Shown: positions 10,372 through 28,170 of the stretch, piece by piece
Layout: every line of letters begins with the position of its first letter
Numbering within the stretch: the stretch's first letter is position 1
Assembly (NCBI GenBank): GCA_003987725.1
Contig: RXJH01000005.1
Span: forward strand, 114,414 to 178,413
Direction of reading: 5' to 3'
Source: Hyphomicrobium sp.
Lineage (GTDB): Bacteria > Pseudomonadota > Alphaproteobacteria > Rhizobiales > Hyphomicrobiaceae
Length of the DNA: 64,000 nucleotides
Position numbers and translations under genes: made by a program
The notes under the pieces: generated by a model
Databases searched by the model: none
What the model was told of the DNA's origin: nothing
What the model saw: the letters and a program-made list of their open reading frames with translations, nothing else

Positions 10372-10609
10372 TGGGTTCCACGAGCCAGAATTCGCGCCGA
10401 CGCGACGCCGTAAAGCTGCGTGTTCCTATCCGCCAGGCGCCGAAGGAACAAGGCTTTCCAAGCGAACGCCCTCAAAAGCTGGTTACCCCGAGGCCCTTTG
10501 CATAATGGAAGCATTACCGACGGGCTCAATCGCGCACGGCAGTAATTCGATATACCGCATTTCAATTATAGATATAACTCTAGCGATCAACGCGCCGCGA
10601 AGCTGCGAT

Positions 10610-11560: not shown

Positions 11561-11813
11561 GTCCCATCTTTGAAATCGGACTTTCAAATCCGCAAGCGGA
11601 GCAACTGGCTCTATTTGCCGCAATGGTTGATGGTCTATTGCAGCGCCACATCGATTGAACAGGCCCAATCCGACCGTAGGAACTTTGACCTTTCGCTAAC
11701 CATTTCCCCTCAGCAGTTACTTCGCTATTCCACGGACGCAGTGCTCGTCCGCACCTGTCCGTCTTGATTATTGGCGCGATGATCCCGCATTAGCGGAGCC
11801 GACATGACGATGA

Positions 11814-12515: not shown

Positions 12516-12699
12516 ACCGCTTCAACCCGCCGCGACGAAAAAAAAGGATCGGCGTGCATGCCTTGAAAAAGCAGGACGCGTCAGTGATTTCTGTGATTAT
12601 TCGCTTGCCGTCATGACCGGCGAAGATTGCTTGCCTCCCTACCGCTCACGGGTACGACGGATCTATGAACACTGAAACCATCGCAAAGGCATATCTCAG

Positions 12700-14163
12700 A
12701 TGAGAGGATTTCTCGCCGCCGCTTACGATCAAGTGAAGCTGGCCCTCGCCATCCGCTCACTGCTGCCCCCGCGCCCCGAAGACCTCGAGCGCAGAGCAAA
12801 AGCCAAGGAGGCGCGCTTCCGTAAGCTCCTGCAGTATGCCTACGAGAATTCGCCGTACTATCGAAAGCAGTTCAAGGGCATCGACCTCGAGACATGCGCC
12901 ATCACTGATCTGCCGACCCTTACGAAGGTCGCCATGATGGCGAACCTGGACGATATTTTCACCGACCGTGACCTTCGCCGTGCCGACATTGAAACTTTCA
13001 TGAACGACCCGGCCAATGTCGGCTACTACTACAAAGACAAATTCGCCGTCTGCCATACCTCGGGAAGCCAAGGTCAGCCGGCCATCATCGTTCAGGACAA
13101 GCCTGCGATCCTGACGACCTTTGCGGCCCAGTTCGCTCGCGGCAAGAAGGTCAGCCGCCGGTTCCTTCCCCATCTTCAGCGCCTGTTCAATCCCGCGCGC
13201 TTTTCCATCATCACGCAAAAGCCGGGCTTCTACCCGAGCAGCACATTCTTCAATTACTTTCCCGAACGCGCTCGCCGCTTCCTCAAGTTGCAGCGTCTTT
13301 CCGTGTTCGACCCGCCAGATGTGCTCGTCCAGAAGCTCAATGAATTTCAGCCGAACTTCATCACCGGCTACACGAGCGCACTCGAGACGATCACCCGCGA
13401 ACTTCAAGCGGGACGCCTCAAGCTCCGAGGCGATCTCGAACAGATGACCAACATAAGCGAGCCGCTTCCCGAGCCCATCGCGCAACGCGTCGAAAAGGCC
13501 TTCGGCGTCCACATTACCAATGTCTACAGCATGGCGGAATGCATGGCGCTCACCTGCGGATGCCAGACGACGCATGGCAGCCACCTCAACGACGAACTCG
13601 CGTTCCTCGAAGTCGTTGACGCCAGGGGCAAGCCCGTTCCGAACGGAACCCCCGGAGCGAAGGTGCTTTTGACCAACCTCTATAATCTCGCCCAGCCGAT
13701 CATTCGCTACGAGGTCGACGACATCGTCACCATCAGTGCAACACCGTGCGAATGCGGCAGCCTTCTGCCTCTCATTCAGGCCGTCCAAGGCCGTTCGAAG
13801 GATCAGTTCTGGGTTAACGTCAACGGTGAGATACGTGACCTGCCGTACTACGTCTTTCTTCTCGCCCTCCACAACGAGACGAATCTCGCCGAGCATCAGT
13901 TCCTTCAGACCGGGGTTAACCGCTTCGTTATGCGGGCCGCACCGCTGCCGGGGCAAACGTTATCCGTTGAAAAACTCAGCCGATATATTCAGCAGTCCGT
14001 GATGTCCGAAGGTCTCGCCAATGTGATCCACATCGACGTTGAGATCGTCGATCGAATTCTCCCCGAAGAGTCAGGCAAGGTTCGACGCGCGAAGAATATT
14101 TTCGGACCGCCGCCGGCCACGCCTTCGGAACCCGAAAGGTCGCGAACGGCAGAAGCTGGCTGA
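12700..14163 (+). CDS. Phenylacetate-CoA ligase/coenzyme F390 synthetase-like adenylate-forming enzyme
   Basis: A 487-residue protein of the PaaK/F390-synthetase branch of the AMP-forming superfamily. Evidence: the N-terminal RFRKLLQYAYENSPYYRKQF segment typical of PaaK-like enzymes, the P-loop equivalent CHTSGSQGQPAII (about residues 124-136), the ITGYTSALE block, ITNVYSMAECMALTCGC for adenine recognition, IIRYEVDDIVTI near the hinge, and a CxCGS pair suggestive of a bound metal (CECGSLLPLI). The substrate cannot be told from sequence. No phenylacetate catabolic genes are nearby. Confidence 0.85.
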   Translation: MRGFLAAAYDQVKLALAIRSLLPPRPEDLERRAKAKEARFRKLLQYAYENSPYYRKQFKGIDLETCAITDLPTLTKVAMMANLDDIFTDRDLRRADIETFMNDPANVGYYYKDKFAVCHTSGSQGQPAIIVQDKPAILTTFAAQFARGKKVSRRFLPHLQRLFNPARFSIITQKPGFYPSSTFFNYFPERARRFLKLQRLSVFDPPDVLVQKLNEFQPNFITGYTSALETITRELQAGRLKLRGDLEQMTNISEPLPEPIAQRVEKAFGVHITNVYSMAECMALTCGCQTTHGSHLNDELAFLEVVDARGKPVPNGTPGAKVLLTNLYNLAQPIIRYEVDDIVTISATPCECGSLLPLIQAVQGRSKDQFWVNVNGEIRDLPYYVFLLALHNETNLAEHQFLQTGVNRFVMRAAPLPGQTLSVEKLSRYIQQSVMSEGLANVIHIDVEIVDRILPEESGKVRRAKNIFGPPPATPSEPERSRTAEAG

Positions 14164-14247
14164 AGACCGAACCGCGCGCCTTTGCGAGGAACCCCGGCTG
14201 ATGAATTTAGTTGAACCGAAGGGCGGCATTTTTTCGGAGTGTCAGTC

Positions 14248-14517
14248 ATGACCAGAAAAATCCTGAAGATCGTCGACGGTCCCGACAAACCGGCTCTGCG
14301 GTCTGCGCTGGCTTATCCTGAACGCGAACAGGTCCACTTCATTCTTGAGGGTGATGCGACAGACGCATCGATCGCGCGCATAGAAGAAATGGCGGAAGGT
14401 TTCACTTTCGAGATAAACGGCCTGCTAACAACGGGCGTCCATAAAGGTGAGACCTTTCTCGGAATTTATAGCGTCGAGACTCGCTCGGGCTCGATAGCTC
14501 TCGGTATCGGCGCTTGA
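14248..14517 (+). CDS. Small protein of unknown function
   Basis: An 89-residue soluble protein with no recognised family. The ATG at 14248 follows a GGAG sequence at 14236-14239; a GTG at 14239 is possible but overlaps that site. The sequence begins MTRKILKIVDGP and contains regularly spaced acidic residues and a C-terminal region of alternating hydrophobic residues (GIYSVETRSGSIALGIGA). It follows the PaaK-like gene by 84 bp on the same strand and is followed by a strong hairpin, so the two are probably an operon. Confidence 0.7.
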   Translation: MTRKILKIVDGPDKPALRSALAYPEREQVHFILEGDATDASIARIEEMAEGFTFEINGLLTTGVHKGETFLGIYSVETRSGSIALGIGA

Positions 14518-14524
14518 GTTGGTT

Positions 14525-14548
14525 GGGCCGCGAGCGGGCCAGCGGCCC
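14525..14548 (+). terminator. Probable terminator after the small-protein gene
   Basis: Perfect 7-bp inverted repeat GGGCCGC/GCGGCCC with a 10-base loop, 7 bases after the stop codon and followed by a pyrimidine-rich TCTTTC tract. Confidence 0.65.
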
Positions 14549-14794
14549 TCTTTCATTCCCATTCTTTTTTGCAATACTCCTGACCTCACGACATCCGAAT
14601 TGAAAGCCAAGCGCTGAGCTGATCAGTCCTGCATGCAGAACTTCGAATTTTAATTCGATTGTTTCCGCTCAGCGGCGCAAAAGAGCGTATTGATCCGAAC
14701 ATCGCAATGTCTGCACACTGTGCGGCATGATGCGAAACGCATCGGCGCGCCGGAATGCTTGGGAGGATGCCGCTTTGAAGACGGGATATTTGAC

Positions 14795-15802
14795 ATGAAA
14801 GCTATCAAAATCGCCGCCCCTGGCGGATTGGACAACCTTGCTCTCGTCGACCTGGCAGATCCAGGCAAGGCCGGTCCAGGTCAGATCCGCGTCCGCATTC
14901 ATGCGAATTCGCTAAATTTTCACGACTATCTCGTCGCTTCCGGAAAAATGAAAGCTGACGACGGGCGAATTCCGATGTCCGACGGCGCAGGCGTCGTCGA
15001 GGATGTCGGCGAAGGCGTCACTGAATTCAAAGCCGGCGACCACGTCGTCTCGTGCTTCTTCCCGCTCTGGCAGGATGGTCCTCCCGAGGTCGATAATTTT
15101 TCCTTCACGCCGGGCGACGGCATCGATGGCTATGCAGCAGAAATCGTCGTCCGGCCGGCGACCTGGTTCACCCACGTGCCGAATGGCTTCAGTCACGCCG
15201 AAGCCGCAACGCTGGCGACGGCTGGTCTCACCGCCTGGCGCGCCCTAGTGGTCGACGGTTGGCTGAAAGCCGGCAACACCGTGCTCGTGCAAGGGACCGG
15301 TGGCGTATCGATCTTCGCCCTGCAAATCGCCAAGGCCATGGGCGCCGAAGTCATCGTGACATCATCGTCCGACGAAAAGCTCGAACGCGCGCGTGCGCTC
15401 GGCGCCGATCATCTCATCAATTACAAAAGCATCCCAGCGTGGAGCACCCGCGTTCGCGAACTCACCGGCGGACGAGGTGTGGACCACGTCGTCGAAGTCG
15501 GCGGACCAGGCACCCTTCCACAATCCATAGCGTCGGTCGCGATCGGTGGACACATCGCACTGATAGGCGTGCTCACCGGCCTCGGCGGCAATGTTCCGAC
15601 CGCTCTGCTGATGGCAAGACAGGCACGCCTTCAAGGGCTCATCGTTGGCAGCCGGCGCGAGCAGAACGAGTTTGTTCGCGCCATCAACGTAATAGGACTG
15701 CGGCCGGTGATCGATCGCAGCTTCAGCCTTGCCGACATCGCACATGCGTTCCGGCTTCAAGAAGAAGGCCGCCACTTCGGTAAGATCTCTCTGGATTTTT
15801 GA
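14795..15802 (+). CDS. NADPH:quinone oxidoreductase-like alcohol dehydrogenase (MDR superfamily)
   Basis: A 335-residue zinc-independent-looking medium-chain dehydrogenase/reductase. It has the GroES-like N domain (NSLNFHDYLVASGKM, PMSDGAGVVEDVGEGV, FKAGDHVV) and a Rossmann nucleotide-binding domain (VLVQGTGGVSIFALQIAKAMGA), followed by TSSSDEKLERARALGADHLINY. The C terminus IAHAFRLQEEGRHFGKI is typical of the family. The ATG at 14795 gives the standard MKAIKI start. The usual cysteine cluster for structural zinc is absent. The VOC gene starts 38 bp downstream, so the two are likely co-transcribed. The substrate is unknown. Confidence 0.88.
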   Translation: MKAIKIAAPGGLDNLALVDLADPGKAGPGQIRVRIHANSLNFHDYLVASGKMKADDGRIPMSDGAGVVEDVGEGVTEFKAGDHVVSCFFPLWQDGPPEVDNFSFTPGDGIDGYAAEIVVRPATWFTHVPNGFSHAEAATLATAGLTAWRALVVDGWLKAGNTVLVQGTGGVSIFALQIAKAMGAEVIVTSSSDEKLERARALGADHLINYKSIPAWSTRVRELTGGRGVDHVVEVGGPGTLPQSIASVAIGGHIALIGVLTGLGGNVPTALLMARQARLQGLIVGSRREQNEFVRAINVIGLRPVIDRSFSLADIAHAFRLQEEGRHFGKISLDF

Positions 15803-15840
15803 CGAACGAAAAATGCACCGAATTGCAGGAGACCGCCGCA

Positions 15841-16266
15841 ATGTTGAATGTCATTTCCGTCGACCATTTTGTATTGAACGTGCGCGATGTCGAAACCTCC
15901 GCTGGCTGGTACGAGCGGGTGCTCGGCATGACTCGCGAGGAGGATCGGCCCTCTGACGGAACGCCCAGAACAAGCGTGAAATTCGGCACCGAAAAGATCA
16001 ATCTCCGTCCGATCAATGCGAGCAAGGTCGAATGGTTCACGGCCGAACATCCAGCTGCGGGCAGCGGCGATCTCTGCTTTCTGACCAATTACTCACCGGA
16101 AGAAGTCTCGCATCATCTGGCGGAAGCAGGCGTCGAGATCGTTCTCGGCCCTGTCACCAAACGCGGCGCGATGGGTAATATCTGTTCCGTTTACTGCCGG
16201 GATCCGGACGGCAATCTCATTGAGATATCTTCGTCCGAGATGCCACCGGGCCCGAAAAGGTCGTAA
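15841..16266 (+). CDS. VOC-family (glyoxalase/bleomycin-resistance/dioxygenase fold) protein
   Basis: A 141-residue metal-binding fold protein. Two beta-alpha-beta-beta-beta modules are visible: VISVDHFVLNVRDVETSAGWYERVLGM at the start, and GAMGNICSVYCRDPDGNLIEISS at the end with the usual catalytic or metal Glu. The first His of DHFVLNV is the likely metal ligand. The ATG at 15841 follows GCAGGAGACC, a good ribosome-binding site. It follows the MDR dehydrogenase. The exact function is unknown. Confidence 0.85.
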   Translation: MLNVISVDHFVLNVRDVETSAGWYERVLGMTREEDRPSDGTPRTSVKFGTEKINLRPINASKVEWFTAEHPAAGSGDLCFLTNYSPEEVSHHLAEAGVEIVLGPVTKRGAMGNICSVYCRDPDGNLIEISSSEMPPGPKRS

Positions 16267-16599
16267 CGACCAGCATCCCCGGCGACGCAATCAAAGTCTC
16301 GAGAGGTAGAAGCGCCTCGGCAGCCGCAACAAGATTTTCTGCGTGACGTCGTATCCGTTAAAACGGATGATCATCCGTGCGCCGAACTTGTCTTCTGTGG
16401 TCAAGGAGAACGCGCCGGATGTTGCTCATGCGTTGATTTAAGGTCACGACGAACATGATTTCCACGTCGACTCCGCAACGCTCGTACTTTCCGCGTTGAC
16501 TTCTGTCTAATTCAAACGCCCTACCCCTGGCTGCTCTCTTCAAACGCTCGGTCAGCCGGGCGTAGCGCCAAATCAGACAGCTCAATCATCGAGAAGACC
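16267..16599. promoter_or_regulatory. Upstream region of the cysteine synthase gene with overlapping palindromes
   Basis: No gene is seen in these 333 bases. Within them lie two overlapping palindromes built from three half-sites: ATCCGT at 16353-16358, ACGGAT at 16363-16368 and ATCCGT at 16373-16378. Each half-site is exactly 10 bp from the next in alternating orientation. The right-hand pair forms a perfect 16-bp palindrome ACGGATGATCATCCGT (16363-16378). This is likely an operator for a dimeric regulator. The distance of over 200 bp to the cysteine synthase start leaves room for a long leader. Confidence 0.5.
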
Positions 16600-17613
16600 G
16601 TGACATTCGCTTCAACTGTAGCCGAGGCCGTCGGCAACACACCACTCATAAAACTCCGGCGCGCGTCCGAGGAAACGGGATGCACAATTCTCGCCAAAGC
16701 TGAGTTCATGAACCCCGGCCAATCCGTCAAGGATCGCGCGGCGCTTTATATTATTCAGGACGCGATAGCGAATAAGCGATTGCAGCCCGGCGGCGTCATC
16801 GTGGAAGGCACAGCTGGCAACACCGGCATCGGGCTGACGATCATCGGGAACTCGATGGGCTTTCGCACCGTCATCGTCGTTCCAGAGACGCAGTCGATCG
16901 AAAAGAAGGACACGCTGCGGCTCCTCGGAGCGGAGGTTATAGAGGTCCCGTCCGTCCCCTACAGCAACCCCGATAATTACGTGAAGTACTCTGAGCGGGT
17001 TGCCCAGTCTCGCGCTGCGAGCGAACCGAACGGAGCGATCTGGGCGGATCAGTTCGACAATCTCGCCAACCGGCAGGCACATGTTGAAACAACAGCCGCC
17101 GAGATCTGGCATCAAACTGAAGGCAAAGTTGACGCGTTCGTATCGGCCGTCGGCACCGGAGGCACTTTGGCGGGCGTCGCGCAAGGGCTGCGAGAGCGGA
17201 ACAGCTCAATCAAGATCGCGCTAGCAGATCCTCCAGGCGCAGCCCTCTACAGCTTTTATACGAGCGGCATGCTGCACGCTGAAGGCACGTCCATAACGGA
17301 AGGAATTGGACAGGGTCGCATTACGAAAAATCTCGAGGGTTTCACGCCAGATTTCTCATTCCAAATTCCGGACTCAGAATCCCTCGCGATTGCGTTCGAC
17401 CTGCTGTCCCAGGAAGGCCTTTGCGTCGGCAGTTCGAGCGGTGTGAATGTTGCGGGCGCCATACGGCTGGCGAAGGCCCTTGGCCCCAATCATGTCATCG
17501 TGACGATCTTGTGCGATCTCGGCACCCGCTATCAATCGAAGATGTTCAACCCCGAATTTCTTCGCGAAAGGAATCTGCCCGTCCCGGCATGGCTCCTGCG
17601 GCGGCCCGGATGA
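16600..17613 (+). CDS. cysK: Cysteine synthase (O-acetylserine sulfhydrylase)
   Basis: A PLP enzyme that makes cysteine from O-acetylserine and sulfide. The 337-residue length fits the family. The PLP lysine is Lys44 in NPGQSVKDRAA, the substrate loop is EGTAGNTGIGL, and the phosphate-binding glycine loop is VSAVGTGGTLAGV. The C-terminal region GLCVGSSSGVNVAGA is also conserved. The start is a GTG at 16600. It is convergent with the CysB-like regulator and close to serine acetyltransferase and the encapsulin/cysteine desulfurase pair, so cysteine made here could directly feed the desulfurase. Confidence 0.92.
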   Translation: MTFASTVAEAVGNTPLIKLRRASEETGCTILAKAEFMNPGQSVKDRAALYIIQDAIANKRLQPGGVIVEGTAGNTGIGLTIIGNSMGFRTVIVVPETQSIEKKDTLRLLGAEVIEVPSVPYSNPDNYVKYSERVAQSRAASEPNGAIWADQFDNLANRQAHVETTAAEIWHQTEGKVDAFVSAVGTGGTLAGVAQGLRERNSSIKIALADPPGAALYSFYTSGMLHAEGTSITEGIGQGRITKNLEGFTPDFSFQIPDSESLAIAFDLLSQEGLCVGSSSGVNVAGAIRLAKALGPNHVIVTILCDLGTRYQSKMFNPEFLRERNLPVPAWLLRRPG

Positions 17614-17623
17614 GCATTGCCAA

Positions 17624-18556
17624 CTAGCCAACATTTCGATCGCGTTCGGCGGCCCTGATGATGGCCTCGGTAATCTTCGGATTGCAATGCTCGACAAATC
17701 GATACGCATAGCGGCGGAGCAAACGTCCGCGGCAGAATGCGATGCTTGACGTGCTCGGTTGGAATGAATCTCGCGCGTCCAGCTTCACGAGTTTTCGATC
17801 CTGGTCCGGATCGTAGGCAACCGACGCGATTATTCCGACGCCCAGCCCCAATGCCGCGTATGCCTTGATGACGTCGGCATCGAGCGCCGTGATTGAAATG
17901 TCAGGACTGAGGCCCGCCAGCTCGAATGCCTGATCGATCCGCTGTCGTCCGGTCAATCCTTCATCGTAGGTGATGATTGGCCATTCGGCGATCGCAGGCA
18001 GCATCAACGGCTGCTCCGTTATCAGCGGATGGCCGTGGGGAACGACGACGGCGTGATCCCAAGTCTGGTAGGGGAATGCGAGGATGCCAGGGTGGCCGTC
18101 GAGCGTGTCGGTCGCAATCGCGATGTCCGCATAACCCGCCAGCAAAATTGCCGGCAAATCCTTCGGACTCGCTTGCTGCATTTGCAGCCGCACTTGCGGA
18201 AATGCCTTTTTGAATTCGGCAATGACAGGCGGCAGCGTGTACCGCGCTTGCGTGTGGGTCGTCGCGACCTTCAATAGGCCTTCGTTGCCGCTCGAGAAAT
18301 CCGCCACCACGCGCGAGAGATTTTCTGCGTCGACAAGCATGCGCTCCACGATCTTGGCCACTTCCTTTCCGGGCTCGGTCAGCCCCAGCAAGCGCTTTCC
18401 GTGGCGGACAAAAATTTCGACTCCAAGCTCGGCCTCTAGATCCCGGATATGCTTACTGAGGCCCGATTGCGAGGTCAGCAATACGTTTGCAGCCTCGGTA
18501 AGATTGAAGCGGTGCCTCACGGTTTCGCGAATAATCCGGAGCTGTTGGAAATTCAT
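17624..18556 (-). CDS. LysR-family regulator, CysB/Cbl-like
   Basis: A transcriptional regulator of 310 residues. The N-terminal winged helix is MNFQQLRIIRETVRHRFNLTEAANVLLTSQSGLSKHIRDLE; the MNFQQLR... NLTEAA and SQSGLSKHI phrasing is characteristic of CysB-type proteins, which sense O-acetylserine or N-acetylserine. The effector domain starts near residue 93 (LKVATTHTQARYTLPP, also CysB-like). An ATG at 18556 is chosen; a longer reading frame extends upstream without homology. It lies between cysteine synthase (convergent) and serine acetyltransferase (divergent), which supports control of cysteine synthesis and possibly the encapsulin. Confidence 0.9.
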   Translation of the reverse strand: MNFQQLRIIRETVRHRFNLTEAANVLLTSQSGLSKHIRDLEAELGVEIFVRHGKRLLGLTEPGKEVAKIVERMLVDAENLSRVVADFSSGNEGLLKVATTHTQARYTLPPVIAEFKKAFPQVRLQMQQASPKDLPAILLAGYADIAIATDTLDGHPGILAFPYQTWDHAVVVPHGHPLITEQPLMLPAIAEWPIITYDEGLTGRQRIDQAFELAGLSPDISITALDADVIKAYAALGLGVGIIASVAYDPDQDRKLVKLDARDSFQPSTSSIAFCRGRLLRRYAYRFVEHCNPKITEAIIRAAERDRNVG

Positions 18557-18873
18557 GACCTGACCAAGACCTTTGACGAGCTTCAAACGAGACCTGGCGC
18601 AGGCCCGCTGTTCGGTGCGCCATAAGCTACCTGTCTGCGCCTCTCCTGAAAGAAAAAAATTCCTTATCAACAAGGGGCATCTGGGCGGACGCCTTTGCAA
18701 AACGCCGATCGGAAAAATCCGACTGAGCTTATGAATATTTATTCGTTTTCTTGGCGCATCGGCTTTGAAAAAAGAAAATCGAAGAATTTTCAAATCAGGA
18801 AGACCGTTTTCGACGGCGACTGGCGACCATAATCCCCCTCAGGCCGCCGTACAGGACGACCGGATACAACGCA
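18557..18873. promoter_or_regulatory. Divergent regulatory region between the CysB-like gene and serine acetyltransferase
   Basis: An AT-richer 317-base region with no gene. It holds a GAATA-TT-TATTC palindrome (about 18733-18744) that includes the sequence TTATTCGTT at 18739-18747. The same nine bases occur in the encapsulin promoter at 19880-19888, which suggests one regulator at both sites. Confidence 0.45.
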
Positions 18874-19854
18874 GTGGATTCGAACGTGCCTAACGATTTC
18901 CTCCCCACAATCGAAAGTGAAATTGACCAGGAAGATCGTGGCGTTCAGCCGTGGGACATCGATGCGATTGTCGCCGCCCTGCGCGATGCGCGTCGGCGAA
19001 GCCAGCGGGTGATTTCGGCCGGAAATCGCCGTGCGCCGATCCCGTCTCCTGAGCTGCTTCAGCAGGTCGTTACAAGACTTTATGCATCACTATTTCCGCG
19101 TCACGCTGGCGCCGTCGATCACAGTGAGGAAGGCCTTGCCTTTTTCGTCGGCAGTACACTCAACGAAGCTCTGCATCTTTTGTCCGAGCAGGTCAGGCGC
19201 GAGCAGGGCTTTATCGACCCTGGGCGGTTGGGGCTTGGTCTGAACACGCGCCCGGCCGAGATTATCGTCGCGGAGTTCACGCAAAAACTCCCCGGCATTT
19301 ACGAACTCTTGGAAAGCGATATTCGCGCCGCATACGATGGCGATCCCTCCGCGCGGAGTACGGAAGAAGTGCTCCTGAGCTTCCCCGGAGTGAAAGCAAT
19401 CATTTATCACCGGATCGCGCACGCGCTCCACGCTTTGGGATCACCCGTCGTTGCGCGCATCATTGCGGAGTCGGCGCATTCGCAAACGGGGATCGACATT
19501 CATCCCGGCGCAAAAATCGGCGGCAATTTCTTCATCGATCACGGCACGGGCGTCGTCATCGGCGAAACGGTGATCATCGGCGAACGTGTGCGCATCTATC
19601 AGGCGGTGACGCTCGGAGCGAAGCGGTTCTCCGTCAACGAACACGGCGCGCTCGTCAAAGGCGAACCGCGTCATCCCATCGTCGAAGACGATGTTGTGAT
19701 TTACGCGGGCGCGACCATCCTTGGCCGGATCACGATCGGACGAGGCTCTTCGATCGGCGGCAACGTCTGGCTCACCCACAGCGTCGCTCCCCAGAGCACC
19801 ATCGTCCAGGCTCAGGCGCGAAGCGAAACGTTCGAGCAGGGCGCGGGGATATAA
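18874..19854 (+). CDS. Serine O-acetyltransferase (EpsC type)
   Basis: Transfers acetyl from acetyl-CoA to serine, giving O-acetylserine for cysteine synthase. The 326-residue protein has an alpha-helical N-terminal part (about 1-185) and a C-terminal left-handed beta-helix of hexapeptide repeats (IDIHPGAKIGGNFFIDHGTGVVIG, then IGERVRIYQAVTLGA and VIYAGATILGRITIGRGSSIGGNVW). The catalytic His is in FIDHGTG. The long N-terminal part matches the EpsC subfamily rather than short enteric CysE. The start is GTG at 18874. The encapsulin gene follows after 93 bp on the same strand, a context reported for Family 2A encapsulins. Confidence 0.93.
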   Translation: MDSNVPNDFLPTIESEIDQEDRGVQPWDIDAIVAALRDARRRSQRVISAGNRRAPIPSPELLQQVVTRLYASLFPRHAGAVDHSEEGLAFFVGSTLNEALHLLSEQVRREQGFIDPGRLGLGLNTRPAEIIVAEFTQKLPGIYELLESDIRAAYDGDPSARSTEEVLLSFPGVKAIIYHRIAHALHALGSPVVARIIAESAHSQTGIDIHPGAKIGGNFFIDHGTGVVIGETVIIGERVRIYQAVTLGAKRFSVNEHGALVKGEPRHPIVEDDVVIYAGATILGRITIGRGSSIGGNVWLTHSVAPQSTIVQAQARSETFEQGAGI

Positions 19855-19870
19855 TTCCAATATAACGACG

Positions 19871-19899
19871 TTGACATACTTATTCGTTCACCGAATAAG
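19871..19899 (+). promoter_or_regulatory. Encapsulin promoter with operator dyad
   Basis: A -35-like TTGACA at 19871-19876 is followed after 16 bases by GAATAA (19893-19898), a weak -10 candidate. Covering the spacer and -10 is a perfect 8-bp inverted repeat: CTTATTCG at 19879-19886 and CGAATAAG at 19892-19899, separated by 5 bases. The inner part ATTCG-N5-CGAAT fits the T-N11-A dyad of LysR-type regulators. The start codon of the shell gene is at 19948. Confidence 0.6.
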
Positions 19900-19947
19900 C
19901 AAATCATAGAATTTGAAACCTAAAATATAGCGGACAATAGGTAAACT

Positions 19948-20859
19948 ATGGCAGACGACGTTCAAACGGCTTTAGGTGATATCGCCGCCCGGCAATTGGC
20001 CAACGCGACCAAGACCGTGCCGCAAATGTCGAGCATCACACCGCGGTGGCTCGTGCATTTCTTGAGCTGGGTCCCCGTTGAGGCGGGCATCTATCGCGTG
20101 AACAAAGTCAAGGATGCCGACCGCGTCGAGGTCGCGTGCTCGCTGCGTGACGAACGCATCCTGCCGCAGACGTTCGTCGATTACGTCGACAACCCGCGCG
20201 AATATTTGTTGAGCGCAGTTCAGACTGTTCTCGATATTCATACCCGCGTCTCGGATCTCTACAGCGTTCCCCACAATCAGATCAAAGAGCAGCTTCGCCT
20301 GACGATCGAGACGGTCAAGGAGCGCCAGGAAAGCGAGCTGATCAACAACAAGGAATACGGCATCATCCCCAATGCCACCGCGTCTCAGAAGATCAGGACG
20401 CGCACAGGCGCGCCGACTCCCGATGATCTCGATGAGCTGATCACGAGAGTTTGGAAGGAACCCGCGTTCTTCCTCGCTCACCCGCAAGCGATTGCCGCGT
20501 TCGGCCGTGAGTGCACGCGCCGTGGTGTTCCGCCGCCGACCGTAACGCTGTTCGGATCGCCGTTCCTCACATGGCGGGGGATCCCGCTTGTCCCGTCCGA
20601 CAAGATCGAGGTGAAGTCCGGCAAGACCAACATCCTCCTGATCCGGACGGGTGAAGCCAAGCAGGGCATCGTCGGACTCTTCCAGCCAGGACTTCCCGGC
20701 GAACTCTCGAAGGGTCTCTCCGTCCGCTTCATGGGCATCAACGACCAAGCCATCGCGTCCTATCTGGTGTCGCTCTACTGCTCGCTTGCCATCCTGACGG
20801 ATGATGCCGTGGGTATTCTCGAGAACGTGGATGTGACCAAGTACCATGCCTACAGCTGA
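19948..20859 (+). CDS. Family 2A encapsulin nanocompartment shell protein (SrpI/MMP-I-like)
   Basis: The shell subunit of a protein nanocompartment with an HK97-like fold, 303 residues. It resembles SrpI of cyanobacteria and the mycobacterial major membrane protein I. Diagnostic segments include SSITPRWLVHFLSWVPVEAG, YRVNKV, NPREYLLSAVQTVLDIHTRVSDLYS, VTLFGSPFLTWRG and the C-terminal VSLYCSLAILTDDAVG. There is no inserted cyclic-nucleotide-binding domain, so it is Family 2A rather than 2B. Its last 14 bases overlap the cysteine desulfurase gene, so the shell and cargo are translationally coupled. It should assemble into an icosahedral shell around the desulfurase. Confidence 0.93.
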   Translation: MADDVQTALGDIAARQLANATKTVPQMSSITPRWLVHFLSWVPVEAGIYRVNKVKDADRVEVACSLRDERILPQTFVDYVDNPREYLLSAVQTVLDIHTRVSDLYSVPHNQIKEQLRLTIETVKERQESELINNKEYGIIPNATASQKIRTRTGAPTPDDLDELITRVWKEPAFFLAHPQAIAAFGRECTRRGVPPPTVTLFGSPFLTWRGIPLVPSDKIEVKSGKTNILLIRTGEAKQGIVGLFQPGLPGELSKGLSVRFMGINDQAIASYLVSLYCSLAILTDDAVGILENVDVTKYHAYS

Positions 20860-23074
20860 ACTCGGACGAAGCACGGACCTTGACGGGCTCGCTGCTGCGG
20901 CGCTCAGCCCGAATGCTGGCATTCGCCCCCCGGCCGGCTTGCCCGATGTCGGAACATTGACGAAGCTCGCGAACGAACTGTTCGCGGCGCTTCCTGGTCA
21001 ATCCGTGCCCCATCCGGCAGGACCATCGTTGGGCGGGCTTGGCGCATCCCCAACGGACGTTACCGGGAGTACTGCTCCGCATGCTGCCGCAGCTGCGACG
21101 TCACCCGTTCCCGTTCCTGGAGCAACGGCGATCGCGGGGCCTTCCCCGTTTTCGCAGCTGGATACCCCTCCGACAGGTCAAGGCGTACCGGTCGGGTTGA
21201 TCAGCGCTGGCGCCACATCGCTGCCCACAAACGGCGTGTCCGGAATTTCGCTGCCGGGCATCGGAGCCTCGCCTTATGTCGATGCTGGATACGTTTCTCC
21301 GGCATCAATTCCGGTGAACCAGGAAACACCGGGAATAGGAGTGCCCGCGGCACCGGCTGATCCGCTGCCCGCACGGGATGTAACTGCGCTCGATCTAAAA
21401 AGCGTTGATGCATTGATCGGTACGCCACCCGGTTCCCTCCCCTCGAGTATCGATGCAAGCCCATCCCAGTCGGGATATGGGGCATCGAAGGGAATCCCTG
21501 CGCGCCCTGAAAGCCCGCGTTCCGTTGAAACTCTTCCCGGAATAGACCGCGCTTCGCCTCCCACAGCACCGGCACCTACTCCGCCGCCTCAAATTCTGAA
21601 CGACCACACAGGCATTGAAACGCCACGCTCCGCCGGATCTGGGCTCGACTTTGATGTCCTCGGAATTCCCTACGAAGCGGAATTGAAATCGTTGCTCGCA
21701 CCCTTGGCGGCCGACCCCGTCAGCTCCTTGCTCGGCGAGACGGGATCGAACCTCTATTTTCTTCCGTCCACTGCAGTTCCCGCAGGCAAGTCTGCGAATC
21801 CGGAAAGCCTCACCGCGGCGACACCCTCTCTCGGCGGCGGTCGAGGCTTCGACGTCGATGCCGTCCGGCGCGACTTCCCGATCCTCAACGAAACAGTCAA
21901 CGGCCGCCCACTGATCTGGTTCGACAACGCGGCGACGACGCAAAAGCCAAGATCGGTCATCGAGCGGCTCAAATACTTCTATGAGCATGAAAACTCGAAT
22001 ATCCATCGCGCCGCTCATGAACTCGCGGCACGCGCGACGGACGCCTACGAAGGGGCGCGCAACAAAGTCGCGCGCTTCCTGAATGCCGGATCGTCCGAAG
22101 AGATCATCTTCACGCGCGGCGCGACAGAAGCCATCAACCTCGTCGCGGCGACGTTTGGACGTCAGCATGTCGGTCCCGGCGACGAAATCGTAGTGACCAA
22201 TCTCGAGCATCACGCCAACATCGTCCCGTGGCAGCAGCTCTGCCTCGAAAAGGGCGCGAAGCTCCGCGTTGCACCGGTCGATGACTGTGGCGCTCTCCTG
22301 CTCGATGAGCTCGGCAAGCTGTTGAACGCACGCACCAAGCTTGTTGCGTTCACGCAAGTGTCGAACGCGCTCGGCACGATCACGCCCGCAAAGGCCATGG
22401 TCGAGATGGCACATCGCGTCGGGGCGCGTGTTCTTGTCGATGGCGCGCAGTCCGTGTCACACATGAAAGTCGACGTGCAGGATCTCAACGCCGACTTCTT
22501 CGTGTTCTCCGGACACAAGCTTTTTGCTCCAACCGGCATTGGCGTCGTTTACGGCAAGAAGGATTTGATGGACACGCTGCCTCCCTACCAGAGCGGCGGC
22601 AACATGATCCGCGACGTAACCTTCGAGCGGACCGAATTCCACAAATCACCGCAACGGTTCGAGGCCGGAACGGGCAATATCGCCGATGCCGTCGGTCTTG
22701 GCGCAGCAATAGACTATGTCGAACGCATCGGCCTCCACAACATCGCCGAATACGAACACAAGCTGCTCGTTTACGCGACGGAACGATTGCTGCAGATACC
22801 GGGTCTTCGCATCATAGGAACGGCACCCGAAAAAGCGAGCGTCATCTCGCTCGTCCTCAAAGGCATCCCGAGCGAAGAAATCGGCGCACGCTTGAATAAG
22901 TATGGAATCGCCGTGCGCTCAGGCCATCACTGCGCCCAACCTATCCTGCGTCGCTTCGGCCAGGAAACGACGGTGCGGCCCTCCTTCGCCTTCTATAATA
23001 CGTGCGAAGAAATCGACGTGCTCATCGGCGCGCTCAAGGATATCCAGGCGGAAGCCGCAATCCCGAGGCTGTAG
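20846..23074 (+). CDS. Encapsulin cargo: SufS-like cysteine desulfurase with disordered N-terminal domain
   Basis: A 742-residue PLP enzyme that releases sulfur from cysteine. Residues about 1-335 are disordered, rich in Pro, Gly, Ser and Ala, and contain likely shell-docking motifs (LTKLANELFAALPG at 38-51, LDFDVLGIPYEAELKSLLAP at 267-286, NLYFLPS at 302-308). The catalytic domain starts near 335 (FDVDAVRRDFPIL). Visible residues are the LEHHANIVPW block, the PLP Lys558 in SGHKLF and the nucleophile Cys696 in RSGHHCAQP. The gene starts inside the shell gene (ATG 20846). Within the compartment it probably stores or delivers sulfur, by analogy with SrpI systems. Confidence 0.95.
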   Translation: MPTAELGRSTDLDGLAAAALSPNAGIRPPAGLPDVGTLTKLANELFAALPGQSVPHPAGPSLGGLGASPTDVTGSTAPHAAAAATSPVPVPGATAIAGPSPFSQLDTPPTGQGVPVGLISAGATSLPTNGVSGISLPGIGASPYVDAGYVSPASIPVNQETPGIGVPAAPADPLPARDVTALDLKSVDALIGTPPGSLPSSIDASPSQSGYGASKGIPARPESPRSVETLPGIDRASPPTAPAPTPPPQILNDHTGIETPRSAGSGLDFDVLGIPYEAELKSLLAPLAADPVSSLLGETGSNLYFLPSTAVPAGKSANPESLTAATPSLGGGRGFDVDAVRRDFPILNETVNGRPLIWFDNAATTQKPRSVIERLKYFYEHENSNIHRAAHELAARATDAYEGARNKVARFLNAGSSEEIIFTRGATEAINLVAATFGRQHVGPGDEIVVTNLEHHANIVPWQQLCLEKGAKLRVAPVDDCGALLLDELGKLLNARTKLVAFTQVSNALGTITPAKAMVEMAHRVGARVLVDGAQSVSHMKVDVQDLNADFFVFSGHKLFAPTGIGVVYGKKDLMDTLPPYQSGGNMIRDVTFERTEFHKSPQRFEAGTGNIADAVGLGAAIDYVERIGLHNIAEYEHKLLVYATERLLQIPGLRIIGTAPEKASVISLVLKGIPSEEIGARLNKYGIAVRSGHHCAQPILRRFGQETTVRPSFAFYNTCEEIDVLIGALKDIQAEAAIPRL

Positions 23075-23125
23075 TTCAGTCGAGAGTGCGTGCATTTTTC
23101 GCCGCGATCGCAACAACGACGAACA

Positions 23126-23151
23126 AGGCAGCCCCTTCCGTGTGGCTGCCT
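23126..23151. terminator. Bidirectional terminator between cargo gene and cbb3 locus
   Basis: Perfect 8-bp inverted repeat AGGCAGCC/GGCTGCCT with a 10-base loop between two convergent genes, followed on the plus strand by the T-rich ATTTACTATCT. Confidence 0.7.
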
Positions 23152-23156
23152 ATTTA

Positions 23157-23849
23157 CTATCTAACCACACACAACACGCTGGCGAAGTGCTGCGGAAAAT
23201 AGACGACGGCGGCACCGGCCGTCATGAGAATAAGGCCTGCCAAAAGATTGAGCCTCGTGCCAGCGGCGCGCCTATTAAGCCACGAAATTCCATAGGCCGA
23301 CGCAATTACGGCCGGAACGGTGCCGGCGCCGAAACCGAGCATGAAAGTAGCGCCTTGGGCGCTCGTGCGCATCAGTGATGCCAACAACGCCGCGCCGTAA
23401 ACCATCGGGCAGGCATTGAGCCCCCAGACAACGCCGAGCGCGACGGGGGCGAGGTAACGGCCCTGCCCTGCGGGACGCAGCAGGGAGTTTACACCGGACG
23501 AAAGCACCTGCATGCCGTGATCGATGAAGGTCAACCTCGGCATCAGTCCCGCGAGCACCAGTCCCATCCATAACAGCGACGCAGCAGCCGCCCACTGCAG
23601 CACGATCGGGCTCTGCGCCGGCGTACGCGACAGAAGATCTCCGCCGAAAGTTCCGGCCACCGCGCCGATGGCCGTGTACGTCAAGATTCGCCCGGCCTGC
23701 ATCAGTAGGAGATTGAGATTTCTATCTCCTGAGGTTTTCGCTCCAAGCAGCAAGTTCGCTCCGCAGGCAATGCCGCCGCACATCGCGCCGCAATGGAACG
23801 CACTGGCGAGCCCGACGGCAGCGCCGCTGAGCAAGCTCTCGCTAAGCAT
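23157..23849 (-). CDS. SafE/TauE-like membrane protein of the cbb3 oxidase locus
   Basis: A 230-residue inner-membrane protein with about six hydrophobic helices. The opening SGAAVGLASAFHCGAMCGGIA with its Cys-His-Cys pattern is typical of the CcoS-adjacent sulfite-exporter-like family (COG2836), which is implicated in copper supply to cbb3 oxidase rather than sulfite export. A second signature, VVWGLNACPMVYGAALLA, is present. The ATG at 23849 overlaps the ccoS stop by 8 bp; longer starts would run through ccoS. It is the last gene of the cco operon. Confidence 0.87.
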   Translation of the reverse strand: MLSESLLSGAAVGLASAFHCGAMCGGIACGANLLLGAKTSGDRNLNLLLMQAGRILTYTAIGAVAGTFGGDLLSRTPAQSPIVLQWAAAASLLWMGLVLAGLMPRLTFIDHGMQVLSSGVNSLLRPAGQGRYLAPVALGVVWGLNACPMVYGAALLASLMRTSAQGATFMLGFGAGTVPAVIASAYGISWLNRRAAGTRLNLLAGLILMTAGAAVVYFPQHFASVLCVVR

Positions 23850-24027
23850 CGTCGCCTTGGCTCCGATCCGATTTCGTCGCCATGCGATCGTTATCATCGC
23901 TGATCGCGCGCCACTTGGCACCTTCGAGATCGTCGAATTGCCCGCTGCGAAGAGCCCAGAGGAAGGCGGCGAGCCCCATCATCCCGAGCGTCAGCGCAGC
24001 AGGAACAAGCCAAGCAAGCGACGTCAT
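23842..24027 (-). CDS. ccoS: cbb3-type cytochrome oxidase assembly protein CcoS
   Basis: A 61-residue single-helix protein needed for cofactor insertion in cbb3 oxidase. The hydrophobic segment AWLVPAALTLGMMGLAAFLWALRSGQFDDL matches the family, with the conserved end of the helix followed by GQFDDLEG. It overlaps both its neighbours (ccoI by 4 bp, the SafE-like gene by 8 bp). Confidence 0.93.
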   Translation of the reverse strand: MTSLAWLVPAALTLGMMGLAAFLWALRSGQFDDLEGAKWRAISDDNDRMATKSDRSQGDDA

Positions 24028-26219
24028 GCCGATGCTCCGACGTTTGGAAGGCGCAAGGCCTTCGAGCGAAGACGAAGCGCGTTTGCCGTGACCATGATCG
24101 ATGATCCCGACATGGCGAGCGCCGCAATCAAAGGCGTCACATAACCCGCCATCGCGAGCGGAACGAAAATCGAATTGTAGAGGATAGCAATAGCGAAATT
24201 CTGCAAAGCCAAACGGCGTGCGGCTTTAGCGACCGACAGCGTCTCAATGACCGGCTGAAGCACGTCGCCTTGAAAAACAGCGTCGGCCGTGGTTTGGGCG
24301 ATATCGATGGCGGATGCGGGTGATAGCGAGGCATGTCCGGCTGCAAGGGCCGGCGCATCGTTGAGGCCGTCACCGACCATCAGCGTCTTGAATCCCCGCG
24401 CCTTCAAGGCTTCGATTGCCTGCAGTTTCTGGTCTGGACGAACCTCAGCAGTCCAATCCACGATGCCGCAAGCCGCAGCCGCTTGCGCAACGGCGGCACG
24501 CCGGTCTCCGGATAACAGACTGACGCGATATCCCGCGTGACGGAGTTCCGAAACGCACTCCGCCGCGTCCTTACGCAATTCGTCGACGAAGTTGAAGCCG
24601 ACAGCAGACTTGCCTTCGGCCACGTACCAGATCGAAGCATTCCGATCCTTGACACCGGCCCACGCGGCCGAACCGACTTTCTCCTCGAAGCCCATGGACG
24701 TCGTAACGAGTCCCGAGCCTGGAACTTCTTCGACGCTCTCAACGGCGTGCGTTTGAAGCCCCTCCGCACGAGCAGCCTTGGCCAGCGCCTGCGCGAAGGG
24801 ATGCTTGCTCACCGCGGCAATCGAACCTGCGCGGTCCAGCGCAGCCACATCGACTACACCGCTCGCCTCGAGCCGCAACTCTCCGGTCGTCAGCGTTCCC
24901 GTCTTGTCAAAGACGACGCAATCGACTTCGGCGAGACGCTCGAGTCCGTCAGGAGCTTTGACAATAACGCCTTTGCTGAACAGACGGCTCATCGCGGCAA
25001 CCTGCACGGCGGGCACGGCAAGAGCCAAGGCGCACGGGCACGTAATGATGAGAACAGCGATTGCATGCGTGAGCGATTGGTCCCACGGCGCGCCGATCAC
25101 CATCCATGCGATGAACGTGATCAATCCGAGAACATGGACCGCGGGCGCATAAATTTGCGAGGCCCGATCGGCAAGCCGGACATAGCGGCCACGGCTCTGC
25201 TCGGCGTTGAGCATCATGCGGCCGATTTCGCTGAGCAGAGTGTTATCTTCCGCAGCCGTAATGCGCACGCGCAGGGTGCCGCCGCAATTGATCGTGCCCG
25301 CATAAACGGAATCGCCGATCGAAACGGCGCGCGGCCGCGTTTCGCCACTGATCAAGCTCTCGTCGATATCGCTTTGTCCGGAGATCACCTCCCCGTCACC
25401 TGCAACACGCTCACCCGCGGCGATGGCGATGACCATTCCCGGCTTGAGCGTGCTCGCGAGAACGAGCTTGGTTGTTTGATCCGGCTCTACCAGTGTCGCG
25501 TTTGTCGCCCTGAGCCCGATCAGGTTTTCGGCTGCCCCGCGCGCCTTGGTCCGCATGCGTTCATCGAGCACTCTGCCGATCAACAAAAAGAACAGGAGCG
25601 AAGTCGCAGCATCGAAGTAGATCTGCCCAGAACTGCGCATCGTCTGGAACAAACTCATGCCCGTCGCCAGCAGCACGCCGAGCGAAATAGGGACATCCAT
25701 GTTGAGGCGCCGCGACCTCAACGCCGCAAGTGCCGACTTGAAGAAGGGCTGACCGGCGTAAGCAACCGCCGGCAGGGCGATGAGCGCCGATAGCCAATGG
25801 AACAGATCCATGAGGGAACTGTCCATGTCGCTGGCCTCGCCGGACCAGACCGCCACGGAAAGCATCATGATGTTTCCGGCTGCAAAACCTGCAACACCAA
25901 GACGAGGAAGGAGCTCGCTCACGCGCGCGGCCTGCTCCGTTTCGGCGTTCTCAATCAACGGCGCAGCCGGAAATCCGGCATGATCGAGTGCCGACGTCAG
26001 GTCGATCGCTGAGCTGAGAGACGGGTCGACCACGACGGAAACGCGCTTGGTCGTTAGATTCGCACGGGCGGCCTCGACGCCGCGGAGAGCCCGCAGCGTA
26101 TTTTCAACCGAACGGATGCAGTTGCCACAAACGATGCTCGGGACTGAAAGTACAATCGTCTGCCGCGCCTCTGCTCTTGGCGCTTGCGCGGCAAGCCCGG
26201 CGTCTAGGGCTGCTTCCAT
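24024..26219 (-). CDS. ccoI: Copper-translocating P-type ATPase CcoI/FixI
   Basis: Transports copper for cbb3 oxidase assembly. The 731-residue protein has an N-terminal metal-binding domain with CGNC (residues about 33-36 in VCGNCIRSVENTL), eight predicted helices, the metal site CPCALALAVP, the phosphorylation motif DKTGTLTTGE, the SKHPFA nucleotide-binding motif, and GDGLNDAPALAAGHASL. A strong AAGGAGCGG ribosome-binding site precedes the ATG at 26219; this start overlaps the fixH end by 16 bp. A longer frame from 26282 is unlikely. Confidence 0.95.
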   Translation of the reverse strand: MEAALDAGLAAQAPRAEARQTIVLSVPSIVCGNCIRSVENTLRALRGVEAARANLTTKRVSVVVDPSLSSAIDLTSALDHAGFPAAPLIENAETEQAARVSELLPRLGVAGFAAGNIMMLSVAVWSGEASDMDSSLMDLFHWLSALIALPAVAYAGQPFFKSALAALRSRRLNMDVPISLGVLLATGMSLFQTMRSSGQIYFDAATSLLFFLLIGRVLDERMRTKARGAAENLIGLRATNATLVEPDQTTKLVLASTLKPGMVIAIAAGERVAGDGEVISGQSDIDESLISGETRPRAVSIGDSVYAGTINCGGTLRVRITAAEDNTLLSEIGRMMLNAEQSRGRYVRLADRASQIYAPAVHVLGLITFIAWMVIGAPWDQSLTHAIAVLIITCPCALALAVPAVQVAAMSRLFSKGVIVKAPDGLERLAEVDCVVFDKTGTLTTGELRLEASGVVDVAALDRAGSIAAVSKHPFAQALAKAARAEGLQTHAVESVEEVPGSGLVTTSMGFEEKVGSAAWAGVKDRNASIWYVAEGKSAVGFNFVDELRKDAAECVSELRHAGYRVSLLSGDRRAAVAQAAAACGIVDWTAEVRPDQKLQAIEALKARGFKTLMVGDGLNDAPALAAGHASLSPASAIDIAQTTADAVFQGDVLQPVIETLSVAKAARRLALQNFAIAILYNSIFVPLAMAGYVTPLIAALAMSGSSIMVTANALRLRSKALRLPNVGASA

Positions 26220-26692
26220 ATCCGCTCCTTCGACCTGTAAACGACCTTGTCGTTTTCGGCAGCGGTGACGGAAAGCGTCCACGTGCCTTCCGAAAGTCCT
26301 AAAATGTCAGCAGCGTAGGTCCCATTACCCGTGGGCGCCAAGTCAAAACGCCGATCGAATATGTCCGTTGTCGCGCGCCCGATTTCCGCCTTCACGAGCA
26401 AACCCTCAATGGGTTGCCGGTTTTCATCCGTCAATGCAATTGCAAGGCGGCCGGTTTTGGAATCGAACGTTCGGTTTTCATGCCATCCGAGCCGGTTCTG
26501 ATCCGCTTCTTGCTGGAGCGTTTGGTTGTAGGCCAGGCCCTTGCGATAGGCATCGGCGGTGTCGCCGCTGAACGTAGAAACAGCTTTGGTGATCAAAATC
26601 CCATCCACGGCCGTCACGGTCAGAAAGAACCCGACAAGGATAGCGAAGACATGCCACCCGCGAAGCGAAACTTTCGATGCTGCAACGTTCAT
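26204..26692 (-). CDS. fixH: FixH/CcoH-family cbb3 assembly protein
   Basis: A 162-residue protein with one N-terminal membrane helix (GWHVFAILVGFFLTVTAVDGILI) and a periplasmic domain. Segments NRLGWHENRTFDS, the NRQPIEGL loop and a closing GTWTL-VTA strand match FixH, which takes part in assembly of cbb3 oxidase. The start ATG overlaps the ccoG stop by 4 bp. Confidence 0.92.
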   Translation of the reverse strand: MNVAASKVSLRGWHVFAILVGFFLTVTAVDGILITKAVSTFSGDTADAYRKGLAYNQTLQQEADQNRLGWHENRTFDSKTGRLAIALTDENRQPIEGLLVKAEIGRATTDIFDRRFDLAPTGNGTYAADILGLSEGTWTLSVTAAENDKVVYRSKERIWKQP

Positions 26693-28170
26693 GGCGGACT
26701 CCTGAATGTCGTGGCGCGTGATGCCGTCTTGCCGCTCTCCACATCCTGCAGTTCGATCGTCACGGGCTCGGCATCCGATCTCAATTCTTTCCTTTGAGCG
26801 CTCGAGAGCATGAGGAAGACTTTGACGGCTCTGACTTCTGATGGGTTGACTTCAATCGTCGGGTCGGTGCCGTCGAACTCCACGAACTTCGGCTGAAGAT
26901 CGGCCGGCCCGCTGAAACGCAACTTGAAGTGCCGAACGCCTTCGACCTTGTTCGCAATCTTGATCATATAGCCGTTACGCAGCCCCCCATCGCTCAACAC
27001 CACGAAAAGCGGATTGCGATCCTGGATGACGTTGAACTCGAAGTCGGCCCGATTGAACAGCGACCATCCCATAAGAGAGGCCACAAGCGTGATCATGGCC
27101 GTATAAAGCATCGTGCGTGGACGAATGATCCGCCAGCCTTCGCGCGGCGCGCTCGTTGCGTTGGCAAGGGTGCCGATGGTCGTATAGGCGATGAGTTCGC
27201 GCGGCCGGCCGACGCGATCCATGATCTCGTTACACGCATCGATGCAGAGCGCACACTGGATACATGCGAGCTGCGATCCGTCGCGGATGTCGATACCCGT
27301 CGGACAGACGGCGACACAGGCCTTGCAGTCGATGCAGTCGCCGCGATCATCCCACGTCGTGCCCTTCTTGTGGGCACCGCGTGGCTCGCCCCGAAGCTCG
27401 CGATAGGAAATGAGAAGCGAATCGCGATCGACCATCGCACCCTGAATGCGCGGCCAGGGACACATGTAAATGCAGACCTGCTCGCGGGCGAGTCCTCCAA
27501 GCAGATACGTCGTCAGCGTGAACAGCCCGAGAAAGACATAGGCAACGGTCGATGCCGTACCATGCACCAGTTCAACCGCAAGTGTCGGCGCATCACGGAA
27601 ATAGAAGACCAGCGCGCCGCCCGTTGCGAGCGAAATCGTTAGCCACGACAGGTGCGTTGCCGATTTCTTCCAGATCTTCTCGAACGACCAGCGCTGCGCA
27701 TCGAGGCGCATCTGCGCGTTGCGATCTCCTTGCCAGAAACGCTCGACGGAAATCATCAGATCCGTCCAGACAGTTTGCGGACAAGCGTATCCGCACCACA
27801 TGCGACCGGCGATCGAGGTGACGAGAAAAAGCGACAGCGCGCCGATAACAAGGAGCCCCGTGACGTAGTAGAATTCCTGCGCCCAGATCTCGATAGGGCC
27901 GAACAACAGTCGCTGATTGGCGAAGTCGAACAGAATGGCCTGATTGGGCAAGCCCTCGCCGCGATTCCACCGCAACCACGGCACGACGTAGTAGATCGCG
28001 AGCGTAACCCCCATCACGATCCACTTGATGCCGCGGAAGGTTCCATGCGCACGCTTCGGATAGATTTTCGTTCGCGACACGTAGTCCGACTGCCGCGGGG
28101 CAGGCGGCGGCGTGGAGCGACTTTCATCACCTCCGATCAGAAACTTGTTCGGTCGATCCATCGTGTTCAT
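26689..28170 (-). CDS. ccoG: Cytochrome oxidase accessory protein CcoG/FixG (4Fe-4S cupric reductase)
   Basis: A 493-residue polytopic ferredoxin-like membrane protein, thought to reduce Cu(II) for cbb3 biogenesis. Two 4Fe-4S clusters are predicted from CIDCKACVAVCP and the second set CIQCALCIDACN, as well as the earlier CGYACPQTVWTD. Several helices cluster in the N-terminal half (ending near the QVCIYMCPWPRIQ segment), and a C-terminal immunoglobulin-like domain follows. It overlaps ccoP and fixH by 4 bp each. Confidence 0.95.
   Translation of the reverse strand: MNTMDRPNKFLIGGDESRSTPPPAPRQSDYVSRTKIYPKRAHGTFRGIKWIVMGVTLAIYYVVPWLRWNRGEGLPNQAILFDFANQRLLFGPIEIWAQEFYYVTGLLVIGALSLFLVTSIAGRMWCGYACPQTVWTDLMISVERFWQGDRNAQMRLDAQRWSFEKIWKKSATHLSWLTISLATGGALVFYFRDAPTLAVELVHGTASTVAYVFLGLFTLTTYLLGGLAREQVCIYMCPWPRIQGAMVDRDSLLISYRELRGEPRGAHKKGTTWDDRGDCIDCKACVAVCPTGIDIRDGSQLACIQCALCIDACNEIMDRVGRPRELIAYTTIGTLANATSAPREGWRIIRPRTMLYTAMITLVASLMGWSLFNRADFEFNVIQDRNPLFVVLSDGGLRNGYMIKIANKVEGVRHFKLRFSGPADLQPKFVEFDGTDPTIEVNPSEVRAVKVFLMLSSAQRKELRSDAEPVTIELQDVESGKTASRATTFRSPP

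Follow-up and report, generated by a model that had tools for sequence, protein, structure and literature searches.

The genus Hyphomicrobium comprises methylotrophic alphaproteobacteria. We analysed a window of 64,000 nucleotides from Hyphomicrobium sp. (the whole stretch, taken from contig RXJH01000005.1 of assembly GCA_003987725.1), in which five genes between positions 16600 and 23074 make up the predicted shell and cysteine desulfurase cargo of a Family 2A encapsulin together with adjacent cysteine genes. An open reading frame (ORF) check placed all five genes at the coordinates given by an earlier reading of the DNA letters (the original prediction), and the identity it had proposed, a Hyphomicrobium Family 2A shell with a desulfurase cargo, was supported. 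The features are listed below in window positions; loci and genomes used for comparison carry L and G numbers.

16600–17613, + strand: cysteine synthase A, PRK10717 type, 337 amino acids (NF007989, 540.1 bits against a cut-off of 387; PF00291)
17624–18556, − strand: CysB-family LysR regulator, 310 amino acids, divergent from the core (NF009327, 401.7 bits, just below the cut-off of 402; PF03466, PF00126)
18874–19854, + strand: serine O-acetyltransferase, EpsC type, 326 amino acids (NF041874, 160.7 bits against a cut-off of 150)
19858–19866, + strand: spacer block CAATATAAC, 90 bases 5' of the shell start
19879–19899, no strand: dyad CTTATTCG-N5-CGAATAAG 5' of the shell gene, a candidate regulator site, unevenly conserved
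19948–20859, + strand: Family 2A encapsulin shell, 303 amino acids (NF041162, 535.2 bits; PF19307, 357.5 bits; 6x8m SrpI, E 6e-156)
20846–23074, + strand: Family 2A cargo, SufS-like cysteine desulfurase with an N-terminal loading domain, 742 amino acids (NF041166, 850.6 bits against a cut-off of 800; 8kg1, E 1.9e-183)
20957–20983, + strand: loading motif 1, LTKLANELF, cargo residues 38–46 (compare LARLANEFFS, PMC8049743)
21746–21763, + strand: loading motif 2, SNLYFL, cargo residues 301–306 (compare AASPYYFLDG, PMC8049743)

The predicted layout was recovered in full, with the serine acetyltransferase preceding the shell gene and the CysB-like regulator and cysteine synthase just beyond it. For the LysR gene the listed ORF ran to 389 amino acids from an upstream TTG and the 310-amino-acid form was used, and the acetyltransferase start is the GTG of its longest ORF. 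The shell and desulfurase ORFs overlap at 20846–20859, which is exactly the 14 bp proposed. For comparison 90 loci were counted, consisting of the window, the Synechococcus elongatus plasmid pANL, 13 further genomes of the genus and 75 named loci, and 55 of the 90 had full flanks. The named loci are no census, being the top 80 among at least 565 confirmed relatives ranked by likeness to the window shell, of which L097, L098, L099, L100 and L103 were dropped as duplicates (same places as L025, L030, L033, L035 and L029). An identical 14-bp overlap was found in 41 of the 89 loci with both ORFs, and in 9 of the 14 genus loci, with no overlap in 6 of the 89; the counts use first-possible starts, which makes the longer overlaps upper limits. 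In the draft genome the window locus lies on a contig of 270 kb. In genomes G001, G005 and G020 the locus is on contigs of 3.6–4.8 Mb and is therefore chromosomal there, and the Hyphomicrobium system described here is probably chromosomal as well.

The shell protein scored 535.2 bits on the Family 2A model NF041162 against a cut-off of 380 (E = 3.2e-161), so the homologue search on the 303-residue protein returned an encapsulin as expected, and it is 73.6% identical to SrpI over residues 1–302. The solved structures closest to it are SrpI (6x8m), the Acinetobacter baumannii Family 2A shell as second-best relative (8t6r; A. baumannii records are 72.7% identical over residues 3–302) and major membrane protein I entries. 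Residues F262 and Y273 of SrpI, which lie near cargo density according to PMC8049743, correspond to F261 and Y272 in the window shell and were invariant in 24 aligned shells. That the protein might be a phage or prophage capsid protein and no encapsulin has in its favour the homology of HK97-type capsids and a roughly 25% identity (E ~1e-6) to capsid proteins on enterobacterial plasmids. This reading was ruled out by the Family 2A model score and the fitting cargo gene that overlaps the shell gene, and is contradicted by the match to SrpI; in addition, no phage family was named among the eight proteins scanned, and 16 Hyphomicrobium-group shells were set apart by a branch with 99/97 support in an unrooted tree. 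We give it practically no chance of being correct. The plasmid records concerned (76–144 kb) carry proteins mostly annotated as major capsid, and we read these matches as a sequence-level trace of the kinship between Family 2 shells and capsids. The protein also scored above the cut-off of the Family 2B model (438 against 400), as a Family 2B encapsulin would, but the best stretch covers only profile positions 210–449 of 450 and the cyclic-nucleotide-binding domain that marks Family 2B had no match in the 303-residue protein, which contains a single Pfam family. Family 2B was ruled out on these grounds and is an extremely improbable assignment.

The cargo assignment rests on a score above the cut-off of the curated Family 2A cargo model NF041166 (E = 1.1e-255) and on a catalytic part closest to 8kg1. 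The lysine of the SGHK motif (K558) and the cysteine of the RSGHHC motif (C696) were invariant in 24 aligned cargos; we take these to be the pyridoxal 5'-phosphate (PLP) lysine and the catalytic cysteine, respectively. Both published loading motifs are found in the N-terminal leader, where 359 residues precede the DNAATT motif. In the 88 of 89 cargos with a form of this motif the leader ranged from 117 to 379 residues with a median of 246 (first-possible starts), and the window leader is therefore long but not unique. Loose forms of the two loading motifs matched 67 and 78 of 88 leaders, respectively, and stricter ones matched 38 and 72 of the 89 cargos; both sets of expressions miss the pANL cargo and so do not serve as a test of motif absence. 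For the cargo, an AlphaFold2 model built on a 24-row alignment was mostly confident in the catalytic part and had a predicted local distance difference test score (pLDDT) below 50 over most of the leader (residues 1–28, 52–275, 287–318 and 323–332), with a predicted helix at residues 35–47 covering the first loading motif. The loading domain of the characterised desulfurase is described as disordered (PMC8049743). The plasmid collection searched with the leader alone gave no match. L167 has a further desulfurase match at a distance of about 4.2 kb from the start of the shell gene, and in L172 the desulfurase match is split in two pieces.

The closest precedent is pANL, which carries genes for cysteine synthase and EpsC-type acetyltransferase, then srpI, cyd and a rhodanese gene, in this order. 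The window and pANL have in common the order of cysteine synthase, EpsC-type acetyltransferase, shell and desulfurase, and an N-terminal loading domain on the cargo. They differ in several respects. pANL is a small plasmid, whereas the window locus is on a 270-kb contig; the shell and cargo genes overlap in the window and are separated by 234 bp in the pANL annotation; a CysB-family gene stands between the cysteine synthase and the acetyltransferase in the window only; and the cargo leader before DNAATT is 254 residues in the first-start pANL ORF compared to 359 in the window. The window acetyltransferase is 55% identical to that of pANL, scored above the EpsC cut-off and fell below that of the TIGR01172 cysE model (163.9 against 210.65), while the window cysteine synthase is 35% identical to its pANL counterpart and belongs to another subfamily. 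The system is thus not new in kind, and because a cysteine synthase in such a layout is known from pANL, the interest that the original prediction attached to the locus was too high.

The genome that contains the window encodes a second acetyltransferase (32% identity), a second cysteine synthase (39%) and a second protein that scores as high on PF00266 (481 bits) as the cargo and is likely a housekeeping SufS. Given these second copies the island looks dedicated, and it is probably extra to the housekeeping genes.

Variation within Hyphomicrobium separates a fixed core from its partners. A shell match was obtained in 14 of 22 genus genomes, with shells 88–100% identical to that of the window across the other loci, and the neighbourhood search found the core of acetyltransferase, shell and desulfurase in all 14 loci. 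The slot upstream of the acetyltransferase, in contrast, varies: 5 of the 14 loci have a cysteine synthase there, 8 have a sulfate-binding protein and one has a different ABC transporter, whose best matches were TauB-like and SsuC-like and below cut-off; a CysB-type gene lies upstream of the core in 5 of the 14. The LysR gene stands between cysteine synthase and acetyltransferase in the window and in L024, and the sulfate-binding protein of L035 is about one gene length further away. The exchanged slot lies ~1–3.5 kb upstream of the shell (window 16600–19854; L024–L036). No remnant of a sulfate-binding gene was detected in the gap between the LysR gene and the acetyltransferase of the window (best E 2.8). 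An acetyltransferase of the locus type (at least 61% identity) was present in each of the 14 genomes with a shell match and absent from the remaining 8. The genes flanking the window locus (ADH, VOC and DsbD-like) had matches next to the shell in just one of the 13 genus relatives, which indicates that the core moved or that its flanks turned over. The original prediction of a complete island acting as one local programme is thus supported in part, and 'complete' says too much: acetyltransferase, shell and desulfurase are constant in the genus loci examined, whereas the cysteine synthase and the CysB-type gene are not.

This pattern bears on whether cysteine synthase and LysR gene lie beside the core by chance and are no functional parts of the system. 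The low count of upstream cysteine synthases agrees with chance, as do close relatives of the cysteine synthase (at least 69% identity) elsewhere in other genomes, including the shell-less G002, the absence of a common site, and a LysR match in two pieces (66% and 60%) in the shell-less G011. On the other side, LysR relatives of at least 80% identity were found in 5 of 22 genomes, all of them shell-bearing, and were adjacent to the shell in 4; G021 has a further adjacent LysR at 66%; and a cysteine synthase of another subfamily occupies the corresponding position on pANL and in many of the loci. We judge chance neighbourhood to be rather unlikely. Another CysB-like gene at 54–61% identity was present in 21 of 22 genus genomes (among the matches listed).

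Upstream of the shell gene, the block YAATATAAC was found at −89 to −91 of the shell start in 11 of 14 genus loci, and the general form of the dyad, CTTAT-N11-ATAAG, at −68 to −70 in 7 of 14, which ruled out the dyad as a conserved site of the whole genus. The exact dyad occurs once in the genome. For 16 spacers the best inverted repeat was scored against 300 shuffles each. In the window 7 shuffles equalled or beat it; few likewise did in L026 (1), L027 (4), L028 (3) and L033 (1) and in L024 (16), L034 (14), L036 (28), L030 (34) and L025 (35), but many did in L101 (88), L031 (174), L029 (190), L102 (209), L035 (228) and L032 (292). The best repeats differ in sequence between spacers, and some sister genomes have variant forms of the dyad. 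With three mismatches allowed, the pattern recovered only the exact site in the window and shuffled sequence gave 2.15 on average, a count that is therefore uninformative. The dyad did not recur 5' of the LysR, acetyltransferase or cysteine synthase genes (−4000 to +3500, 14 genus loci) and, together with the single exact site in the genome, this means that no regulon motif was established; likewise, the search for a site common to LysR gene, cysteine synthase and shell was negative. Between 16400 and 23400 no sequence passed as a sigma-70-type promoter, and shuffled sequence yielded 2.2 on average. The evidence for a regulatory role of block and dyad is moderate and uneven, and nothing links either of them to the LysR gene.

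Neighbouring genes across the 90 loci point to sulfur limitation as their setting. Families were labelled by single-linkage clustering of ORFs, in which the ABC-ATPase cluster is mixed. The acetyltransferase family was present in 79 of 90 loci; in 71 of the 84 with enough sequence it lies on the same strand and starts at most 1600 bases upstream of the shell, and of the remaining 13 it is downstream in 3 and was not found in the searched span in 10. Sulfate-binding proteins were present in 39 of 90, CysT/CysW-type permeases in 28, the mixed ABC-ATPase family with CysA in 24, and 12 loci had a rhodanese-like family. Of the 55 full-flank loci, 34 contained a sulfate-binding or CysT/CysW gene (a raw count with no random-locus control), and it is on this basis that we regard sulfur limitation as the setting. 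Among nine example neighbour proteins compared with NCBIfam, three sulfate-binding proteins and one CysW scored above their cut-offs; the rhodanese-like example matched no model at 1e-10 and takes its name from a link to the rhodanese of pANL. A 2021 survey counted 1281 Family 2A operons that have desulfurases and placed 813 of the systems in Proteobacteria, with acetyltransferases and rhodaneses the most highly enriched accessories (PMC8346489). An EAL-domain family gene was also found near the shell in 22 of 90 loci (L108, L109 and L122 among them).

Taken as a whole, we consider it very likely that the locus encodes a Family 2A encapsulin with a packaged desulfurase, which the neighbouring cysteine genes may feed. 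By analogy with characterised relatives, from which assembly, loading and activity are taken over, the shell protein would form a small icosahedral HK97-fold capsid and the flexible desulfurase leader would dock by its short motifs on the shell interior. Cysteine would enter via pores, the packaged SufS-like enzyme would remove its sulfur and alanine would leave, with the sulfur either kept in the shell as a reserve or handed to acceptors. The acetyltransferase would supply O-acetylserine and the cysteine synthase would convert it to cysteine, supplying the shell when sulfur is available. Sulfur storage, CysB-type control and feeding by the adjacent cysteine synthase are parts of this scheme that we infer only. 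Sulfate starvation raises the levels of SrpI and its desulfurase (PMC8049743), and the system is most likely a sulfur buffer tied to sulfur limitation.

In an alternative view of its function, the main task of the shell would be to insulate or activate the desulfurase and to pass sulfur to acceptors (rhodanese, SufE-like) for cofactors, with no store. Channelling to a co-regulated rhodanese has been proposed (PMC8346489), PMC8049743 reports a roughly sevenfold gain in kcat on encapsulation and discusses SufE-like activation, and the 12 loci with a rhodanese-like family would fit it. The window locus, however, has no rhodanese match beside it, and according to an introduction sentence of PMC12407261 desulfurase cargos take part in the storage of sulfur. 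Transfer to acceptors without a store is a possibility that we take seriously and yet doubt.

Several results weigh against the packaged desulfurase and sulfur buffer as we read them. Knockouts of the shell and desulfurase genes are reported to have had no growth defect in S. elongatus, the model system (PMC8049743). The pANL rhodanese had no match in window positions 10001–28000 at E 1e-5, nor in the loci of 13 genus relatives. Eight of the 22 genus genomes gave no shell match, the cysteine synthase and LysR gene are non-constant partners among the genus loci, and the acetyltransferase match upstream of the shell in L034 (genome G006) has one stop codon inside, and may be a damaged copy or have a later start. 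The AlphaFold2 monomer of the shell was of low confidence (mean pLDDT 52), and Foldseek with this model returned Family 2A shells as best (E 1.3e-31), but at a template modelling (TM) score of 0.50 and a root-mean-square deviation of 12.8, followed by Family 2B shells and then by phage capsids and another encapsulin (E > 0.001). The predicted HK97 fold of the shell is accordingly carried by sequence identity and not by this model.

Beyond the known layout, the new details are the exchangeable slot upstream of the core and the dyad upstream of the shell. They allow a further proposal, in which a fixed core is combined with an exchangeable sulfur-acquisition slot and, in one sub-lineage, with a dedicated CysB paralogue that binds or otherwise works through the dyad at 19879–19899, so that a methylotroph would fill and empty a store of cysteine-derived sulfur as sulfate supply dictates; we regard this proposal as unlikely. 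If it is true that a locus-bound CysB paralogue controls the shell, the physiological role could become approachable in a second organism. Slot exchange inside one genus offers a natural experiment on the purpose of the shell. The known system is extended to Hyphomicrobium, including a named strain, H. facile DSM 1565, which has a Family 2A locus that is a near relative of that in the window (L098, same place as L030). Within the collection of papers searched, we found nothing joining encapsulin with Hyphomicrobium, or encapsulin with sulfate and CysB, and, judged by titles, no encapsulin and methylotroph paper on such a system.

At wider taxonomic range the shell was present in 29 of 103 genomes of the family (5 of 25 genera) and in 27 of 397 sampled genomes of the order (10 of 141 genera), 26 of them above cut-off. 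In 8 of these 26 the main piece matches only from profile position 49–52 and the frames are 471–526 residues long, and these shells may be Family 2B. Besides Hyphomicrobium, 34 of the 80 best-matching named loci are titled as Methyl- taxa, in a set ranked by likeness to the window shell that does not imply enrichment.

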